Assembly (NCBI GenBank): GCA_040902225.1
Contig: JBBDXT010000004.1
Coordinates: forward strand, 764,965-828,964
Reading direction: 5' to 3'
From: Chloroflexota bacterium
GTDB taxonomy: Bacteria; Chloroflexota; Limnocylindria; QHBO01
Length of the DNA: 64,000 nt
In this document: positions 48,685-61,543 of the stretch, piece by piece
How positions within the stretch are numbered: the stretch's first letter is position 1
Layout: every line of letters begins with the position of its first letter
The notes under the pieces: generated by a model
Database searches by the model: none
Told to the model about the DNA's origin: nothing
Seen by the model: only the letters and a program-made list of their open reading frames with translations
Position numbers and translations under genes: made by a program

Positions 48685-49590
48685 ATGGCGCTGGCCCAGG
48701 CCGTCACCCCGCCCGTGGCACGGTTGCTCGACGCGCTGGATGCCGAGCAGCGAGCCGCGGCGACCCTGCCGGATGGGCCGGCGCAGATCATCGCTCCGGC
48801 CGGCAGCGGAAAGACCACGACGCTCATCGCCCGGCTCGGCGTGCTCCTGACCCGCGGCGTGGCAGCCGAGCGGGTCGAGGTGCGGACCCTCCACGCCCTC
48901 GCGCGCCAGGTGCTCCTCGACGCGGGTGAGCCGGTCCATCTGCTGGCGGACCGCATGCCACTGCTGCGCGCGGCGCGGAGGCGCGTGGTCGCCGGGCGAG
49001 CCCCAGACGACCCGCCGGTCCCTGAGCCCGCCGCTCTCGACACGCTGCTGTCGGCCTGGAAGGTCGAGGGGAGGCCCCCGCCCGAGGCCGCGCTGCCGGC
49101 CCTCTCCATCTTCAGCGACCTCCTGGCCGCGCGGGGTGCGCTCGGTTTCGACGACCTCGTGGTTCGGGCGGTCGACCTCCTCGAGCGCGACCCCGCACTC
49201 CGGCAACGATGGCAGAGCCGCTTCAGCCACCTGGCGGTCGACGAGTTCCAGGACGTCGATGCGGCTCAGCTGCGCATGGTCCGTATCCTCGCCGAGCCGG
49301 AGCAGAACCTGTTCGTGGTCGGTGACGACGACCAGACGATCGTCAGAACTCGCACATATAGCGGCCTTAGCGAGCGAGGTGGCCGGAGACGCGACCGCGC
49401 TGCTACTCCGAGTGGTCGAGCTCGATGTCGGCCGGAGCACCGACGAGGTGAAGAGGCTTGTTGCCTAAGCTTAGATCGGAAGATGAAGCCTGGAGTGCGC
49501 GGGTGACCCGGGCAACGATCAGGAGTCCGATCACGAGCGCCTCGCCGTCGGGCGAGACCGAGGTGAGCCGCATCTGCAGGGAGCTCGGCA
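48685..49590 (+). pseudogene. Decayed UvrD/Rep-like SF1 helicase (copy A)
   Basis: Residues 1-220 match the intact helicase at 59858-61543: Walker A APAGSGKTTTLIARLG, SAWKVEGR, FDDLVVRAVD, DEFQDVDAAQLRMVR and VGDDDQTI. Two lesions are visible. A 93-bp in-frame deletion after GVAAER removes the motif Ia region (TFNRDAAAEL); in the intact copy the lost segment is bounded by ATCGGGGTC and ATCGAGGTC. The helicase then stops at 49342, where the 46-bp repeat begins and about 800 bp of the second half are missing. A short piece at 49497-49590 reading RVTRAT ... VSRICRELG may be the C-terminal remnant (ALTRAT ... PSRFLEEMG in the intact copy). Not expected to be active. Confidence 0.8.
49343..49388. 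repeat. 46-bp dispersed repeat, copy 1
   Basis: Begins TCAGAACTCGCACATATAGC and ends GGCCGGAG. It matches 56261-56306 at 45 of 46 positions. Here it marks the point where the helicase pseudogene is broken. Read in frame on the plus strand it encodes SELAHIAALASEVAG, continuing in unique sequence to a stop at 49468 (DATALLLRVVELDVGR, then STDEVKRLVA). The start of such an ORF is missing here. Confidence 0.85.
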
Positions 49591-49720: not shown

Positions 49721-50224
49721 ATGCCCGACCTCGCCAAAGATCGCTCGTTCCTGATCCGCCCGGACCGGGAGCAAGAGCCGCCGCAAGGAATCGCGAACCT
49801 GCTTCGGATCGAGGGCAGTCGGATGGCGGGTCGTGTGGCAGTCATCGAACATCCGATCGCGCCTGGCGTCCTGGTGCCGCCGCACACCCACACTCGCGAA
49901 GACGAGGTGAGCTACGTCGTACGTGGCACGATCGGGGCACGAGTGGGCGACGAGTTCATCACGGCGGCGCCAGGGGCGTACGTGATGAAGCCGCGCGGGA
50001 TTCCCCACGCGTTCTGGAACGCCGGGCCGGAGCCGGCCAGGATCGTCGAGATCATCGTCCCCGCCGGGTTCGAACGGTTCTTCGCCGAACTCGACGAGCT
50101 CGCACGACAGGGACCGCTTGACTCGCGTGCGCACGCGGCGCTCGGACAACGATATGGCGTGCGCTACCACGACGAATGGATCGCAGAGCTCGCTGAGCGC
50201 TTCGGTGTGCGCATACCGACCTGA
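49721..50224 (+). CDS. Cupin-domain protein
   Basis: The 167-aa protein has a single double-stranded beta-helix domain: PPHTHTREDEVSYVVRGTIG (metal-binding His/His/Glu) and the second motif PRGIPHAFWNAG. A C-terminal helical tail of about 55 residues follows. Such cupins are small sensors or oxygenase-like enzymes; no substrate can be assigned. The start ATG (MPDLAKDRS) was chosen because upstream residues lack similarity; no strong Shine-Dalgarno is seen. Confidence 0.85.
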   Translation: MPDLAKDRSFLIRPDREQEPPQGIANLLRIEGSRMAGRVAVIEHPIAPGVLVPPHTHTREDEVSYVVRGTIGARVGDEFITAAPGAYVMKPRGIPHAFWNAGPEPARIVEIIVPAGFERFFAELDELARQGPLDSRAHAALGQRYGVRYHDEWIAELAERFGVRIPT

Positions 50225-50352
50225 TGGTGTCGGCTACCCCTTCGGCCGGGATGCGTCGCGCATCCCTGATCCTCTCGGCGCGGGCCGGTGAGGCGCCGCT
50301 CAAATCCCTGCGATGCGGCGCTACGATTCCGCCAGAATGCTTGGGGACCACC

Positions 50353-51060
50353 ATGCCGAGCGATGCCCAGCAAATGCCCGAGGCAGCCGATGTCCCCGGC
50401 CTCGACCAGGCCGTGGAGACCTTGACCCGCGGCGCCGAGATCCTGCGATCCCTGAGCCTGCACGAAGAGGCCGGCGAGGTGATCGCGATCCTCGAGCGGC
50501 TGGGGCCGGGTCCTGCGGGCATCGGTCATAACGTCTTCCGGCGGGAGGGTGAGTACCGTCTCATCCTGTACGGGTCGGACGTCTTCCGGCTGAAGGAGAC
50601 GCTCGGGCTGTCGTACCTGGCAACGCTGCTGGCGCACCCGGGCCGCGAGATCCACGTGCTCGAGCTCGTCGGCAGCGACACGGCCCTGGCATCGCACGCC
50701 GGCCCGCTGCTCGACCCCGAGGCGCGGCGCGCCTATCGCGAGCGGATCGAGGAGCTCACAGCCGAGCTGGCTGAGGCGGAACGCTTCACCGATCCGGAGC
50801 GGGCGGCGCGACACCGCCAGGAGCTCAAGCTGCTGCGAGCGGAGCTCGCGCGGGGCGAGGGGCTCGGTGGGCGGGCGCGCGCCACGGGCTCGAACTCCGA
50901 ACGCGCTCGGCAAGCGGCCACGAAGGCCCTGAAGAGCGCGCTGGCTCGCATCGCCGCCGAAAGCCCCTCCCTCAGCCGGCACCTCGCCAGCACCGTCCGC
51001 ACGGGCACCTATTGCCGATACGACCCCGACCCCAGGCTGCCCATCTCCTGGCGTGTCTGA
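50353..51060 (+). CDS. Conserved hypothetical protein with winged-helix-like and coiled-coil regions
   Basis: The 235-aa protein has a short helical N-terminus and a beta-rich section (GEYRLILYGSDVFRLKETLG) followed by LSYLATLLAHPGREIHVLEL, resembling a small winged helix. A strongly charged coiled coil (about 115-180, DPEARRAYRERIEELTAELA) follows, then ALARIAAESPSLSRHLASTV and GTYCRYDPDP. This tail is recalled from the C-termini of large actinobacterial and chloroflexotal ATPase/TPR regulators; here it stands alone. Function unknown; a regulatory role is inferred only. Confidence 0.7.
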   Translation: MPSDAQQMPEAADVPGLDQAVETLTRGAEILRSLSLHEEAGEVIAILERLGPGPAGIGHNVFRREGEYRLILYGSDVFRLKETLGLSYLATLLAHPGREIHVLELVGSDTALASHAGPLLDPEARRAYRERIEELTAELAEAERFTDPERAARHRQELKLLRAELARGEGLGGRARATGSNSERARQAATKALKSALARIAAESPSLSRHLASTVRTGTYCRYDPDPRLPISWRV

Positions 51061-51125
51061 GGGCGCGACGCCGCTGTTCACCGTTGTGACGCCGTCCTTC
51101 ACGCCTCAGGGATAAAGGAGGCGTC

Positions 51126-52766
51126 ATGGCCACCATGCTCTCGGTCGATCCCGCCGCCGCCGGTGAGCGGTCGCCCATCGGTCCCGAGACCGTTGCCGAG
51201 CTCGAGCGCTTGATCGCGGCGACCGGTCTGGAGGCTTCACTTCGCGGTCGCTACTCCGTCGTCTTCGCCTTCCCAGGCATGGGCGTCGGGCAGCACTACC
51301 CCGAGCTGGCCGGCTGCACGCTGGAGGTCTGCACGTTCATCGACGAAGCCGGCGTCTTCGCGAAGCACGGCATCGAGGTAACCGGCCTCTCGGGCGAGCG
51401 GAGCGAACCACCTGCCGGCTGCCTGGCGATCCCGTTCCCGGTCGGCGTCATCGAGCAGTCCGACTTCGGTGGACCGATCGGCTTCGTCGAGCAGGACGGC
51501 CGCCGCTACGCGCAGCGTGCGACGCTCGTGATCTTCCCCGATGGCACCGGTGTCCGCCTCACGGGAATCGCGGACATCGTCGGGCACGTGCGGGCATGCC
51601 TCGACCTCGTGCTCGGCCACCGGCTCGAGCGCTTCCGACAGGCTGCGGTCGCGAGTGACGTCAGCCGCCTCCGCTCCACGGCGCAGCTCGGTCCGCTGCT
51701 GCCGAACGGGGCCGATTCGGTGGCCATCACCCGCGTCGATGTAACGATCCCGCTCGTGGTCAAGATGGCCGCGCCGGCCATCGTGCGCGAGGAGGCCGGC
51801 TACATGCGCCGCGTCAACGGCCTGCTGGAGCAGGCCGGTCGTCCGCGCCTCTTCCCGGCAGTCGTCGCCATCGGCGCCGACGAGGATCCGGCCTGGTATC
51901 TCATGGAGGCGGCCGATCCGGTGCCGCTCGACCGCCTCCTATTCGCGGACGAGGCGCGGACCGTCGTGGACTCGGCTCGGCGGCCACTGCTCACCGCGGG
52001 CATCGACCATCTCTCGGACCTCTATGAGCTCACTTTCCGGCGTGAGGTCTCGCCTGTGGCGCGGTACCACTACCGAGATCGATTCGCGGTCATCCCCGGG
52101 CGAGCCGACACGCGGCTCACCCACCAGCTGCTCGTCGGTGGCGGAGATCTCGACGAGCTGCTGAATCGGCCGATCGTCATCGATGGCTTCGCCTGCCACC
52201 CATATCGCCAACAGCTCGCCTTCCTGGAGCAGCATGTCGCCGATCTCGCTCAGCCCGTCGGTGCGTACCTCCACGGCGATGCCCACCTGCCGAACATGCT
52301 CCTTGCTGGCGACGAGTCGATCGTGTTCGTCGACCCCCGCGTGGTGTGGGACGGGAACGACGTCGGAGATCCAGGCTTCGGCGACCCGCTCTACGACTTC
52401 GCCACGCTGCTCCATAGCCTCCACGTGATGTCGGCCATCCTGCACGCCATCGAGGTGGAGGAGACAGTGGCGCTCCTGGCCTTCGAGGTGACGCCGGCGG
52501 GGATCCACGTGAGCTCGGGTACCCTCCGGATCCACGGCAACCCCGTGGTCGGGTCGTTCACGGCCACCGTCGCCGGCCGCCTGCCGCCTGACATCGCCGG
52601 CGCGAACTGGCAGGCGCGGCTCCATATCGGCACGGCCAACGCCCTCCTCGGCTGGCTCAAGTACGCGCGCTCGGTCCAGACCCGCGAGGCCTGGCTGGCC
52701 ATCTTCGTCTCGGTGCTCTACCACCTGGAAGTCGGGCGCCGACTGGTCATTGGAGAGGAGATCTGA
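51126..52766 (+). CDS. PrxQ-like redoxin domain fused to aminoglycoside-phosphotransferase-like kinase
   Basis: The 546-aa protein appears to be an unusual fusion. Residues about 40-165 resemble peroxiredoxin Q/BCP: VVFAFPGMGVG, AGCTLEVCTF with Cys64 and Cys69 in the CxxxxC spacing of PrxQ, and HGIEVTGLS. The usual Thr two before the peroxidatic Cys motif is replaced (ELAGC). Residues about 190-546 resemble APH/choline-kinase folds: VVKMAAP (ATP-binding Lys213), catalytic YLHGDAHLPNML (381-392) and metal-binding IVFVDPR (399-405), then GDPLYDFATLLH. AAAGGAGG precedes ATG. The partner gene starts 2 bp after the stop. The substrate is unknown. Confidence 0.8.
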   Translation: MATMLSVDPAAAGERSPIGPETVAELERLIAATGLEASLRGRYSVVFAFPGMGVGQHYPELAGCTLEVCTFIDEAGVFAKHGIEVTGLSGERSEPPAGCLAIPFPVGVIEQSDFGGPIGFVEQDGRRYAQRATLVIFPDGTGVRLTGIADIVGHVRACLDLVLGHRLERFRQAAVASDVSRLRSTAQLGPLLPNGADSVAITRVDVTIPLVVKMAAPAIVREEAGYMRRVNGLLEQAGRPRLFPAVVAIGADEDPAWYLMEAADPVPLDRLLFADEARTVVDSARRPLLTAGIDHLSDLYELTFRREVSPVARYHYRDRFAVIPGRADTRLTHQLLVGGGDLDELLNRPIVIDGFACHPYRQQLAFLEQHVADLAQPVGAYLHGDAHLPNMLLAGDESIVFVDPRVVWDGNDVGDPGFGDPLYDFATLLHSLHVMSAILHAIEVEETVALLAFEVTPAGIHVSSGTLRIHGNPVVGSFTATVAGRLPPDIAGANWQARLHIGTANALLGWLKYARSVQTREAWLAIFVSVLYHLEVGRRLVIGEEI

Positions 52767-52767
52767 C

Positions 52768-53250
52768 ATGACTGCACGGATCGACCTGGTCGCGCCGACG
52801 ACGCCATCCATCTCTCCCTATGTCGCCCGCCCAATCGCCTTCCATGAGCTGTGGCAGCCCGGCGGCTGGCGGCTCAAGGTCTACGGCATCGAGTACGAGC
52901 GCCCAGCTCCTCGACCGGAGCTCGTTGATGCCGCCAAGCGGCTGGCGCTCGAGGTGCTGCCGCCGGAGCCCGCCTACGCGGTCGGATTCATCGGCGCTCA
53001 CGACGCGCGGGGTGGCTGCTACGTCTTCGTCGACTGGTGGGCCGATGAGAATGAGCTGCACCACAAGAACTTCCTCGGACCGTCACCCGACGACCTTCGA
53101 TCAGCCGGACCCGACGACTCGGTGGCGTGTGTCTGGGACCTGGCAGTCATCGACTTCGAGCGACGCGCCTGGCACGAGCTCGTGGTCAAGCAGGCAGGCG
53201 CTCCTGATCTCGGGGCGTACCTCGCGCGCCGGTTCGAGGAGACGGTCTAG
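52768..53250 (+). CDS. Unrecognised 160-aa protein, partner of the redoxin-kinase
   Basis: I do not recognise the family with confidence. The protein is alpha/beta-like, with FHELWQPGGWRLKVYGIEY, AYAVGFIGAHDARGGCYVF, a striking VDWWADENELHHKNF and ACVWDLAVIDFERRAWHELV. There is no signal peptide or membrane segment. GGAGAGGAG precedes ATG and only one base separates it from the upstream stop, so it is almost surely co-translated with the redoxin-kinase. The conserved Trp, Asp, Glu and His cluster could form an active site. Confidence 0.8.
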   Translation: MTARIDLVAPTTPSISPYVARPIAFHELWQPGGWRLKVYGIEYERPAPRPELVDAAKRLALEVLPPEPAYAVGFIGAHDARGGCYVFVDWWADENELHHKNFLGPSPDDLRSAGPDDSVACVWDLAVIDFERRAWHELVVKQAGAPDLGAYLARRFEETV

Positions 53251-53311: not shown

Positions 53312-54154
53312 GTGACATCGGTTGAGACAGCGGGCGCCCTTGGGAGGGTGGTGGCACTTTGGCGTTACCCGGTCAAGTCAATGATGGGCGAGGAACTGAA
53401 TGCGGCAGATTTGACCGAGCGCGGGATCCATGGCGACCGCGCCTACGCCCTCATTGACAGCGAAACCGGCAAGGTGGCGAGCGCGAAGAACCCACGTAAG
53501 TGGCCGAATCTGTTCGACCATCGTGCCAGCTTCGTGGAGCCACCGAACAGAAACAACGCGTTCCCGCCAGTCCGCATCACGCTCCCCGACGGAAGCATGC
53601 TCACCAGCGATCAGCCTGACATCAATCGCCGACTTTCGGCGGAGCTGGGGCGAGAAGTGACGCTGACGGCGGCAGCGCCGAACGAGCCCGAGCTTGAGGA
53701 GTACTGGCCGAACATCGAAGGCCTGGCTCACAACGACCTCGTGACCGATGAGGCGATGCCCCACGGAACGTTTTTCGACCTATCGGTGCTCCACATCCTG
53801 ACGACGGCGACCCTTGACCGGCTCCGCGAGCTCTACCCCCAGGGACGCTTTGAGCCACGGCGCTTCCGTCCGAATATCATCATCGATCCCAACCCGGCGG
53901 AGGGCTTTGCGGAGAACGAATGGATCGGAACGGCGTTACGCATCGGGGCCGATGTTCGGGTGCAGATCACCGGTGGTTGCCCGCGGTGCGTCATGACGAC
54001 CCTGCCCCAGGTGGACCTGCCGAAGGATCCCGGTATCCTGCGAGCAGCGGCCCAGCACAACGACGTACACGTCGGGGTGTACGCGAAGGTGATCCAAGGT
54101 GGCAGAGTGCAGCGGGGCGACCGCGTCGCACTGCGAGTCCCGATGCCAGCGTAA
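53312..54154 (+). CDS. MOSC domain-containing protein
   Basis: The 280-aa protein has an N-terminal MOSC_N barrel (RVVALWRYPVKSMMGEEL, GIHGDRAYALID) and a C-terminal MOSC domain with FRPNIIIDP and the likely molybdopterin-related Cys in GGCPRCVMTTLPQ. MOSC proteins (YiiM, mARC, C-terminal MoCo sulfurase) bind or carry molybdenum cofactor and act on N-hydroxylated or similar compounds; the substrate is unknown. The GTG start has AGGAGG 8 nt upstream. Confidence 0.9.
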   Translation: MTSVETAGALGRVVALWRYPVKSMMGEELNAADLTERGIHGDRAYALIDSETGKVASAKNPRKWPNLFDHRASFVEPPNRNNAFPPVRITLPDGSMLTSDQPDINRRLSAELGREVTLTAAAPNEPELEEYWPNIEGLAHNDLVTDEAMPHGTFFDLSVLHILTTATLDRLRELYPQGRFEPRRFRPNIIIDPNPAEGFAENEWIGTALRIGADVRVQITGGCPRCVMTTLPQVDLPKDPGILRAAAQHNDVHVGVYAKVIQGGRVQRGDRVALRVPMPA

Positions 54155-56033: not shown

Positions 56034-56260
56034 TTACCGCTCGGGGGGCCAGCCCGAGAGGCCCTCCAGCGCGCGCGGCGCGATCCTCGAATACAAGCCC
56101 CGGCTCCCGACGCCAGATGATACGTGGTTCGCGTCCAGATTCTCGTTCTGGGCACCACCCATCGCTCGACCTCAATGCGATTCTCCCGCGTCTCAGACGA
56201 GAGAACAAGGCCTGACCAGCAAGGGGCAACGCAAGGGTGGCGACGACGATCAGCCGTAAT

Positions 56261-56306
56261 TCAGAACTCGCACATATAGCGGGCTTAGCGAGCGAGGTGG
56301 CCGGAG
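56261..56306. repeat. 46-bp dispersed repeat, copy 2, inside a short GTG ORF
   Basis: 45 of 46 identical to 49343-49388. Upstream a GTG at 56237 with AAGGGG 10 nt before it reads MATTISRNSELAHIAGLASE, so the repeat here includes a plausible start. Joining this start to the tail at copy 1 gives a hypothetical protein of about 49 residues ending STDEVKRLVA. The frame becomes antisense to the PIN remnant and SRPBCC gene after 56308. No known family is recognised. Confidence 0.7.
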
Positions 56307-57229: not shown

Positions 57230-57610
57230 ATGACGATCGCGCCATCCACAGCCGCACGGGCGGCTGACGGCCTACTTGCGTCTCTCGACCCTGAGCAGCG
57301 CGCGGCCGCGATGCTGCCCGATGGGCCAGCCCTCATCATTGCCCCGGCCGGGAGCGGCAAGACGACGACCCTGATCGCGCGTCTCGGCGTCCTCGTTGAC
57401 CGCCGGGTTGCCGCCGACCGGATCGGGGTGGTCACCTTCAACCGTGACGCCGCGGCCGAGCTGGCGGCCCGCGTCGCCGGACGGCTGGCGCCCTACGTGC
57501 CAGGCGCCGCGGCGATCGAGGTCCGGACCCTGCACGCCATGGCCCGCCAGGTGCTGCTCGATGCCGGGCGCCCAGTCCGGCTGCTCCCCGACCGTCTCTA
57601 CCTGCTGCGG
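57230..57610 (+). pseudogene. Truncated UvrD/Rep-like helicase start (copy B)
   Basis: About 127 codons closely match the intact gene at 59858: both begin MTIAPS, followed by LDPEQRAAAMLPDGPA, APAGSGKTTTLIARLGVL, VVTFNRDAAAELAARV and RTLHAMARQVLLDAGRPVRL. Similarity stops at LLRAAR (about 57610), before Walker B, where a CcmF-like tail begins in another frame. Unlike copy A, motif Ia is intact. The frame stays open into the OsmC gene, but no ATPase could form from this fragment. Confidence 0.85.
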
Positions 57611-57683
57611 GCCGCTCGTGGCCGCCATGGTCTGGCTCGGCGGCGGGCTGATGCTCGCCCTTGTCGCCCGCCGCGCGCGGTAG
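57609..57683 (+). pseudogene. C-terminal scrap of a membrane protein, CcmF-like
   Basis: In a different frame from the helicase fragment, 24 codons read GPLVAAMVWLGGGLMLALVA then RRAR and stop TAG. The pattern PLVxxxxWLGGxxMxL with a basic end resembles the last membrane helix of the cytochrome c maturation protein CcmF. Only the very end is present, joined to the broken helicase; the family is a guess. Confidence 0.4.
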
Positions 57684-57802
57684 AGTCCGGGGTTGGTGTG
57701 CTCGTCTTCGGCGCGTGGCTGGTCCTCGTCGCAATCCTCGAGCCCGCGGTCCATCCACCGGCTGGCATCATTCTGCGTCACCAGATGAGAGGAGGCAGAC
57801 CG

Positions 57803-58318
57803 ATGGGCGGTGCGGGCATACGCAGGGCAATCGACGCGGCCAGCGCATATCTCCGAGAGCATCCGGAGGAGGCGCGATCGACCGACAGCGCCGCGACCGC
57901 CAGGCTCGTCGAGGGCCTCGTCGTTCGCGTTACTGGCCCCGGCGATGCGAGCATCACGACGGACATGGTTCGATCGGTGGGCGGCACGGCCACGGCGCCG
58001 TCGCCCGGCTGGCTGCTGCGGGCGGCCGAGGCGAGCTGCGTGGTCACGCTGATCGCGATGCGCGCGGCGGTGCTCGGTCTTGCTCTCGACAAGGTCGAGG
58101 TGACCGTAGACTCGGAGTCGGACGATCGAGGTCTCCTCGGTCTTGACGAAACGGTACCCGCCGGCCCGCTCAGCGGTCGTGTCTCCGTCGCGTTGGCGGC
58201 CGCCGGTGTCGATCCCGACACGCTGGAGGAGATCGCTCGCTGGGGTGTGAAGCACTGTCCGGTCTGCGACGCGCTGGAGCGGACCGTGCCAGTCCTAACC
58301 GAGGTCTCGACCAGCTGA
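57803..58318 (+). CDS. OsmC-family protein
   Basis: The 171-aa protein has the OsmC/Ohr architecture: a beta N-terminal half, the first Cys in AAEASCVVTLIAMRA, and KVEVTVDSESDDRGLLGL. The second Cys region is WGVKHCPVCDALERTVPV. Members reduce organic hydroperoxides or bind related compounds. AGAGGAGG precedes ATG by 8 nt, so it is a gene in its own right although the helicase fragment upstream is in the same open frame. Confidence 0.85.
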   Translation: MGGAGIRRAIDAASAYLREHPEEARSTDSAATARLVEGLVVRVTGPGDASITTDMVRSVGGTATAPSPGWLLRAAEASCVVTLIAMRAAVLGLALDKVEVTVDSESDDRGLLGLDETVPAGPLSGRVSVALAAAGVDPDTLEEIARWGVKHCPVCDALERTVPVLTEVSTS

Positions 58319-59857: not shown

Positions 59858-61543
59858 ATGACGATCGCGCCATCCGCCGCCGCGTCGGCAACTGGGGCCC
59901 TGCTCGGGTCGCTCGATCCCGAGCAGCGGGCAGCCGCCATGCTGCCCGACGGGCCGGCCCAGGTCATCGCCCCGGCCGGCAGCGGCAAGACGACCACCCT
60001 GATCGCGCGTCTCGGCGTGCTCCTCGGCCGCGGGGTGGCCGCCGATCGGATCGGGGTCGTCACCTTCAACCGCGACGCTGCCGCCGAGCTGTCGGCGCGC
60101 ATCGCCAGCCGGCTCGCCCCGGAGGTGCCCGGCGCCGAGGCGATCGAGGTCCGGACGCTCCACGCCCTGGCGCGGCAGGTGTTGCTGGATGCCGGGCGCC
60201 CGGTCCGGCTGCTCCCCGACCGTCTCCCGCTGCTGCGCGCCGCGCGTCGGCGGGCGCTCGCCGAGCTGCGCGTCGCCCCGGACGGCGACGATTCCCCACC
60301 CGAGCCTCCCGATCCGGCGGCGCTCGACACCATCGTCTCGGCCTGGAAGGTCGAGGGCCGAACGCCGCCGCCCGAGGCGGCGGCCACGGTGGACGCCTTC
60401 GCGGCGCTGATGGCGATCCGAGGCCAGATCGACTTCGACGACCTGGTGGTGGGTGCGGTGGCGGCGCTCGAGGGCGATCCGCGGCTTCGCCGCCGGTGGC
60501 AGGCCCGCTTCAGCCACCTGTGCGTCGACGAGTTCCAGGACGTGGATGCCGCCCAGCTCCGGCTCGTGCGCCTCCTGGCCGCTCCCGAGGACAACCTGTT
60601 TGTGGTTGGTGATGATGATCAGACGATCTACGCCTGGCGCCTCGCGGACGTGCGTCGCATCCTTGGCTTCTCCGAGCTCTACCCGCGCGCCCGGCGTGTC
60701 CAGCTCGCCACCAACTACCGATGCCCGCCATCGGTCGTGGCAGCCTCGCGACGGCTGATCGCCGCCAACGCCGAGCGGTTCGAGAAGCGCATCGATGCGA
60801 CTCCCGGTCGCCGCACCGAGCCGACGGCGATCGTGATGGTGGCATCGGTGGGCCATGACTGGCCTGACCGGCTGGCGGCGCTCGCCGCCGCCGAGTCGTC
60901 AAACGGCGGCGGGTGCTGCATCCTCGCTCGGACCCGCGCCGAGCTGACTCCCGTGGCCCTCGCGCTGCTGCGGGCAGGCCAGCCGCACGCGACCACCCTG
61001 CCAACGCCGCTCGAGGCCGAACCGGTCCGCGCGCTGCTCAACGCCGTACGCCGCCTGCCACCGGCCGATCCCCCGTTTCCGGAGTTGCTTCGCGAGCGGG
61101 CCACGCGCGGGTGGCGACGCGGGGACGGCGACGACGCGCTGGGCGACGACGACCATGCCGCCATCGATGCCCTCCTCGGCTGGGCCGCGGCCTTCGCGCG
61201 ACTGGATCGTTTCCTGGCGGCCGGCGACGAGGTCCTCGCCCGCCTGACCCGGCTGCGCGACCCGGCTGCGCCGATCGAGCTGGTGACCGTGCACGGCGCC
61301 AAGGGACAGGAGTGGCCCACTGTCGTGGTCATCGGGTTCGAGGAGGAGCGCTTCCCCAACCGGCGAGCGCTCCTTGGGGCGCTGGACCCGCGGCGAGCCC
61401 TGGAGGAGGAACGGCGCCTCGGCTACGTCGCGCTCACCCGGGCAACGCGGAGGCTGGTACTCGCCTTCGACCCCGCGCGCCCATCACGCTTCCTGGAGGA
61501 GATGGGCTACAGCCCGACCTCGGGTGCGATCGCCGAGAGGTAG
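59858..61543 (+). CDS. UvrD/Rep-like SF1A DNA helicase, short form (intact copy C)
   Basis: The 561-aa protein has all SF1A motifs: Walker A APAGSGKTTTL, Ia VVTFNRDAAAEL, Walker B CVDEFQDVD, III VGDDDQTIYAWR, IV ATNYRCPP, V VTVHGAKGQEW and VI YVALTRATRRL. At 561 residues it is much shorter than UvrD or PcrA (about 720): the 1B and 2B insertions are reduced. It translocates 3'-5' on ssDNA by family rule; the role is unknown. It shares a 5' flank with copy B. No Shine-Dalgarno is obvious. Its 3' end overlaps the HD-domain gene by 37 bp on the opposite strand. Confidence 0.92.
   Translation: MTIAPSAAASATGALLGSLDPEQRAAAMLPDGPAQVIAPAGSGKTTTLIARLGVLLGRGVAADRIGVVTFNRDAAAELSARIASRLAPEVPGAEAIEVRTLHALARQVLLDAGRPVRLLPDRLPLLRAARRRALAELRVAPDGDDSPPEPPDPAALDTIVSAWKVEGRTPPPEAAATVDAFAALMAIRGQIDFDDLVVGAVAALEGDPRLRRRWQARFSHLCVDEFQDVDAAQLRLVRLLAAPEDNLFVVGDDDQTIYAWRLADVRRILGFSELYPRARRVQLATNYRCPPSVVAASRRLIAANAERFEKRIDATPGRRTEPTAIVMVASVGHDWPDRLAALAAAESSNGGGCCILARTRAELTPVALALLRAGQPHATTLPTPLEAEPVRALLNAVRRLPPADPPFPELLRERATRGWRRGDGDDALGDDDHAAIDALLGWAAAFARLDRFLAAGDEVLARLTRLRDPAAPIELVTVHGAKGQEWPTVVVIGFEEERFPNRRALLGALDPRRALEEERRLGYVALTRATRRLVLAFDPARPSRFLEEMGYSPTSGAIAER

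Follow-up and report, generated by a model that had tools for sequence, protein, structure and literature searches.

A rare pairing of a redoxin-like domain with an APH-like kinase, fused in a soil Chloroflexota bacterium

The DNA analysed here, a 64,000-nucleotide stretch referred to as the window, comes from a soil Chloroflexota bacterium. It contains a gene whose product joins a PrxQ/AhpC-like redoxin domain to an APH-fold kinase domain, followed by a gene for a small partner protein (Table 1). The redoxin and kinase occur together again on plasmids of Vibrio, as a fusion, and of Agrobacterium, as neighbouring genes. This recurrent pairing of a peroxiredoxin-like protein with an APH-fold kinase, fused or split by lineage, is good evidence of a functional link. 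Our favoured reading, which we hold tentatively, is of a kinase that acts on a small molecule and is coupled to a thiol-redox domain. It would derive from a rare module for an N-oxygenated, amide-ligated metabolite and would act locally in modification, detoxification or sensing. The system had been put forward as undescribed; consistent with this, our search of the open-access literature found no paper describing a redoxin-kinase unit, a result that does not prove absence.

Table 1. Features at the fusion locus (window coordinates).
Feature	Coordinates	Strand	Remarks
278-aa gene directly upstream of the fusion	50224..51060	+	Conserved there in the same-genus genome
Intergenic region	51061..51125	+	Two ~21-bp direct repeats GACGCC-N5-TCAC; palindrome TCAC-N4-GTGA at 51078-51089
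Redoxin-kinase fusion, 546 aa	51126..52766	+	PrxQ/AhpC-like residues ~37-160; APH-like kinase residues ~190-540
PrxQ/AhpC-like domain	51126..51605	+	Cp-type Cys64, Cr-type Cys69 (CX4C), Arg131; Leu61 replaces the TxxC threonine
APH-fold kinase domain	51690..52745	+	Lys213, Glu223, HGDxHxxN (Asp385, Asn390), Asp403-Pro-Arg invariant, six homologues
160-aa partner, family of unknown function (alignment A6)	52768..53250	+	
MOSC_N + MOSC domain protein	53312..54154	+	Downstream in the same-genus genome too

Domain content of the fusion protein

The fusion is one gene, with a single open frame and a strong Shine-Dalgarno sequence (AGGAGG) on its 5' side. The frame encodes the motifs AGC64TLEVC69TF, HGD385AHLPN390 and FVD403PR. 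These motifs and the Shine-Dalgarno sequence were all found as an earlier sequence-only reading of the locus had described them. That reading also placed the start of the partner 2 bp after the fusion stop codon; the actual spacing, between the TGA and the start of the 160-aa ORF, is 1 bp. The partner ORF has its own ribosome-binding site (GGAGAGGAG). Third-codon-position GC is high in both genes, as coding sequence here should show. The frame is uninterrupted not only in the window genome but also in independent records from a congener, a Thermoleophilaceae metagenome-assembled genome (MAG) and two Vibrio plasmids; we therefore rejected an assembly or frameshift artefact as the source of the fusion. 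Note that the AlphaFold model of the fusion (pLDDT 39) was too poor for structure searching. Hence, our fold assignments are made from profile matches and conserved residues.

For the kinase half, Pfam family APH (PF01636) matched residues 195-430 with E=2.3e-6 and 28.0 bits, above the gathering cut-off of 23.2 bits. All four fusions matched the APH family at E<=1, the best at 6.5e-7. Six aligned kinases share an invariant Lys213, Glu223, HGDxHxxN (H383-G-D385-x-H-x-x-N390) and D403-Pro-Arg, so that both the catalytic Brenner motif, HxDxxxxN, and the metal-binding Asp are present. On sequence grounds, this set has the features of an active APH-fold enzyme. The Lys/Glu pair, HGDxHxxN and the metal-binding Asp are common to APH-type phosphotransferases. 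Conversely, the fusion kinase, of ~350 aa, has a distinctive PxGADS and GWLKY signature, and it matches no named subfamily at its cut-off. The named aminoglycoside kinase families (NCBIfam equivalogs) gave 13.5 and 13.1 bits, against cut-offs of 205 and 325.

Taken as a single sequence, the redoxin half gives weak matches (Pfam AhpC-TSA, 0.085, below the cut-off; NCBIfam PrxQ, 2.4e-4). A profile of the four fusions, searched against the PDB, retrieved 27 chains up to E 0.1, the best at 1.5e-5, and all were peroxiredoxin or AhpC. In a single hhalign profile comparison, the redoxin half aligned with a clear-cut peroxiredoxin of Agrobacterium (Pfam Redoxin, 9.8e-21), with a probability of 94% and E 1e-7. 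Profile matches thus bear out, for both halves, the proposal that PrxQ/BCP-like and APH-like domains lie in one protein. Cys64, Cys69 and Arg131 are invariant in six sequences, with the CX4C spacing of PrxQ. The CX4C pair and catalytic Arg are shared with PrxQ/BCP and AhpC peroxiredoxins. Unlike those proteins, the fusion lacks the TxxC threonine, has additional residues separating the conserved Pro from the Cys, and carries a C-terminal kinase.

The conserved catalytic motif of peroxiredoxins includes a Thr at -3 from the peroxidatic Cys (PMC3337327). At this position, otherwise Thr or Ser, all four fusions have Leu and the two Agrobacterium proteins have Ala. Since the threonine is replaced in every fusion, ordinary peroxidase activity of the redoxin half is doubtful; thiol reactivity, judged from the retained residues, is likely. 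Hence, the description of this half as a thiol peroxidase-like module holds for the redoxin fold and for Cp, Cr and Arg, but not for the TxxC threonine. Redox gating of the kinase, also suggested by the earlier reading, is a hypothesis. The Leu substitution and the weak single-sequence Pfam score could also mean that the redoxin half has decayed and lost any redox role, the two domains being fused for co-expression only. Given that Cp, Cr and Arg are invariant down to 25% identity, and that Agrobacterium retains a separate redoxin in the same operon, we consider such decay quite improbable.

Distribution of the fusion and of its partner

Among 177 genomes of the class, the fusion was found only in the window genome and one congener. 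In this same-genus genome, the fusion and partner are 81% and 78% identical to those of the window, and the genes are adjacent. They are also adjacent in the Thermoleophilaceae MAG, which represents another phylum and was drawn from a species-level genome collection (52-53% identity for the fusion and 56% for the partner). The 160-aa gene therefore lies directly after the fusion in three of three genomes and two phyla, an arrangement conserved between unrelated genomes. The pair proposed from the window alone thus occurs in two further genomes, one of them outside the phylum.

A kinase-domain profile detected the window genome and its congener, and no others, among 400 Chloroflexota genomes. 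Only the seed was recovered with the kinase-domain profile from 397 Actinomycetota genomes, and with a whole-protein profile from 299 Thermoleophilia genomes. We conclude that the redoxin-kinase family is very rare and scattered, with rarity surveyed in Chloroflexota and Actinomycetota genomes and occurrence elsewhere known from plasmids only. Such rarity fits an accessory, horizontally spread use. A phage or known anti-phage origin was considered and rejected: neither the fusion nor the partner matched any of 50,697 phage records, the fusion had no match in viral contigs, and there was no match in PADLOC.

The partner family is found more widely than the fusion. It is present in nine of the 400 Chloroflexota genomes, two with the fusion, adjacent in both, and seven without the kinase. 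Fusion and partner co-occur in this set with a Fisher value of 4.5e-4, although the two positive genomes are congeners. Several plasmids also carry the partner family and not the kinase. Because seven of the nine Chloroflexota genomes with the partner family are devoid of the fusion, the partner is a companion in this lineage rather than a dedicated subunit. Hence, the two-gene system first proposed is supported by adjacency in three genomes, but its 160-aa member belongs to a wider family, mostly found without the kinase. The unit with the widest support is instead redoxin plus kinase, fused in Vibrio and separate in Agrobacterium.

The partner itself matched nothing in Pfam, NCBIfam, PHROGs or PADLOC. 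Its AlphaFold model is of modest confidence (pLDDT 62, pTM 0.57) and had no match in the PDB below E 1e-3. We did not credit a similarity to ribosome-hibernation factors, which is a loose alpha-beta resemblance only. Nor did we credit a single marginal match, to actin depolymerizing factor, which the partner profile gave in a search of PDB sequences (E 0.042).

Members of the partner family occur in varied settings. On a Yersinia frederiksenii plasmid (L015 7410-8438), an isochorismatase-family protein has a C-terminal domain of this family. In Aureibacter, the gene is beside DJ-1/PfpI and GNAT genes. Xenorhabdus plasmid pXT29 (L016 6539-16381) has a homologue in an apparent biosynthetic cluster, together with MetRS-like, GNAT, adenylation-domain, rhodanese, PvdA and EctB genes. 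Elsewhere, the family is found beside a hydrolase and an MFS gene, or with no obvious companions.

Plasmid relatives and the possible substrate

Two Vibrio plasmids encode the full-length fusion, with 25% identity over 94% of the query. The proteins, WP_043011706 (p319) and WP_235676593 (p1ST2), are annotated as hypothetical, and match the window fusion in domain order, CX4C, Arg and kinase motifs. The surroundings differ. In Vibrio, the fusion gene is flanked by one for an iron-containing redox enzyme (Haem_oxygenas_2 family) and one for an ATP-grasp protein. An MFS transporter gene lies upstream, and no 160-aa partner is annotated nearby. Two Agrobacterium pAt plasmids have a kinase of the same family (29% identity; WP_306019461, phosphotransferase) and a related redoxin (WP_306019459, peroxiredoxin). 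In contrast with the window fusion, these are two separate proteins encoded by one operon, in the order N-monooxygenase, kinase, ATP-grasp ligase, peroxiredoxin, epimerase and MFS transporter.

The ATP-grasp proteins of Vibrio and Agrobacterium are homologous (8e-10). Common to both plasmid clusters are the kinase, the redoxin, ATP-grasp, MFS and an enzyme of N-oxygenase type, either Haem_oxygenas_2 or Lys/Orn monooxygenase. For the Haem_oxygenas_2 protein, oxygenation of nitrogen is presumed from its family. That kinase and redoxin are joined in one protein in certain lineages, and encoded by separate genes of a similarly composed cluster in another, is our best evidence that they act in one process. 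This Rosetta-stone evidence, a full-length fusion in Vibrio against separate genes in one Agrobacterium operon, counts in favour of a combined kinase and redox enzyme. It suggests that the pairing recurs as a small-molecule module in biosynthesis-like clusters.

In our preferred reading, the APH-fold domain would move phosphate from ATP to a low-molecular-weight substrate, while the fused CX4C redoxin domain would act by thiol-redox chemistry on this compound or on a linked metabolite. The substrate in the plasmid clusters is probably an N-oxygenated, amide-ligated metabolite. Since an N-oxygenating enzyme, an ATP-grasp ligase and an MFS transporter accompany the module, an N-oxygenated amino-acid or dipeptide-type compound would be most likely. 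Note that identity between the Vibrio and window fusions is only 25%, so the window substrate may differ; we count this against a shared substrate. The chemistry could be more unusual still, with kinase and redoxin forming a single catalytic device in an undescribed pathway. Peroxiredoxins attack O-O bonds. By analogy, the redoxin Cys might attack an N-O bond activated by the kinase, which would phosphorylate an N-hydroxyl; in the plasmid clusters, the linked N-oxygenase would supply this group. A bond between nitrogen and a heteroatom could thereby be built or broken, and the changed substrate would then account for the Leu that replaces the TxxC threonine. We regard this route as speculative and very unlikely. 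The Agrobacterium and Vibrio clusters offer a tractable way to find the substrate, and could reveal new nitrogen chemistry or a redox-coupled kinase.

Apart from kinase and redoxin, no gene of the plasmid clusters has a homologue in the window or in loci L003 and L004. As the window locus has none of these biosynthesis genes nearby, modification, detoxification or sensing is the more likely local role. There, linked to a regulator-like fragment and to the small partner, the fusion probably modifies, detoxifies or senses a compound of the type made by the plasmid clusters; the partner may contribute to this.

APH enzymes inactivate antibiotic-like compounds by phosphorylation. Fusion and partner might therefore be a self-contained pair for resistance or detoxification, in which the kinase inactivates such a compound, the 160-aa protein deals with the product, and the redoxin clears any accompanying peroxide or thiol damage. 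The APH fold and the lack of local biosynthetic genes agree with this, as do several settings of the partner family, namely the isochorismatase fusion and the neighbourhoods with DJ-1/PfpI and GNAT genes or with a hydrolase and an MFS gene. Genes for a cupin, a BBE oxidase, an OsmC protein and a Polyketide_cyc2 protein, all near the window fusion, are also in keeping with it. However, the kinase is distant from all named aminoglycoside kinase families, with scores of ~13 bits where the cut-offs exceed 200, and the plasmid clusters indicate biosynthesis instead. We consider a resistance pair unlikely.

Surroundings of the fusion gene

Residues 105-278 of the protein encoded directly upstream of the fusion are 53% identical to the C-terminal end of a Streptomyces AAA ATPase. 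The ~21-bp repeats between the two genes recur, with one extra copy, in the same-genus genome (L002 1401-1490). The TCAC-N4-GTGA motif occurs 5 times in the window, where 0.73 are expected. From their arrangement, the intergenic repeats look operator-like. In the Thermoleophilaceae locus, we did not see the downstream MOSC gene in the corresponding place. Here, one 916-aa ORF combines a BTAD (SARP-type) domain, a cyclase-like stretch and, behind BTAD, the redoxin-kinase; the cyclase-like stretch is our own call and has no Pfam match. A Trans_reg_C domain is encoded just upstream, in a different frame, and we infer a full SARP-type regulator in this MAG.

These features raise the possibility that, in Chloroflexota and Thermoleophilia, the redoxin-kinase is the sensory or output part of SARP/AfsR-type regulation. 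Oxidation of Cys64 and Cys69 would switch the kinase-like domain, altering a fused or neighbouring regulator. The Thermoleophilaceae ORF with its upstream Trans_reg_C, the ATPase-like upstream gene of the window and the operator-like array before the fusion all fit. Conversely, the Proteobacterial homologues are among biosynthetic enzymes, not regulators, and the kinase keeps all catalytic residues, as in an enzyme. Furthermore, the MAG encodes Trans_reg_C in a frame other than that of BTAD, and the complete regulator is our reconstruction. We judge a regulatory part to be somewhat improbable, and retain the metabolite kinase as the better account.

A 65-bp direct repeat, at 49324-49388 and 56242-56306, flanks the segment with the cupin, 278-aa, fusion, partner, MOSC and BBE genes. 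Its 19-bp core is present at only these two sites in the whole genome, on the same strand, and the left copy of the repeat coincides exactly with the point at which a UvrD-like gene ceases to resemble the intact copy. The repeat is likely to be an island boundary. A UvrD-type helicase gene is present as two partial copies of its 5' part, at 48685-49353 and 57230-57568, and then as an intact copy at 59858-61543. Unrelated accessory genes come after each partial copy, as though DNA had repeatedly been added beside the uvrD start. At 57230-58318, a single frame runs from the UvrD N-terminal fragment into an OsmC-domain protein; this is probably a junction ORF, with OsmC being the real gene.
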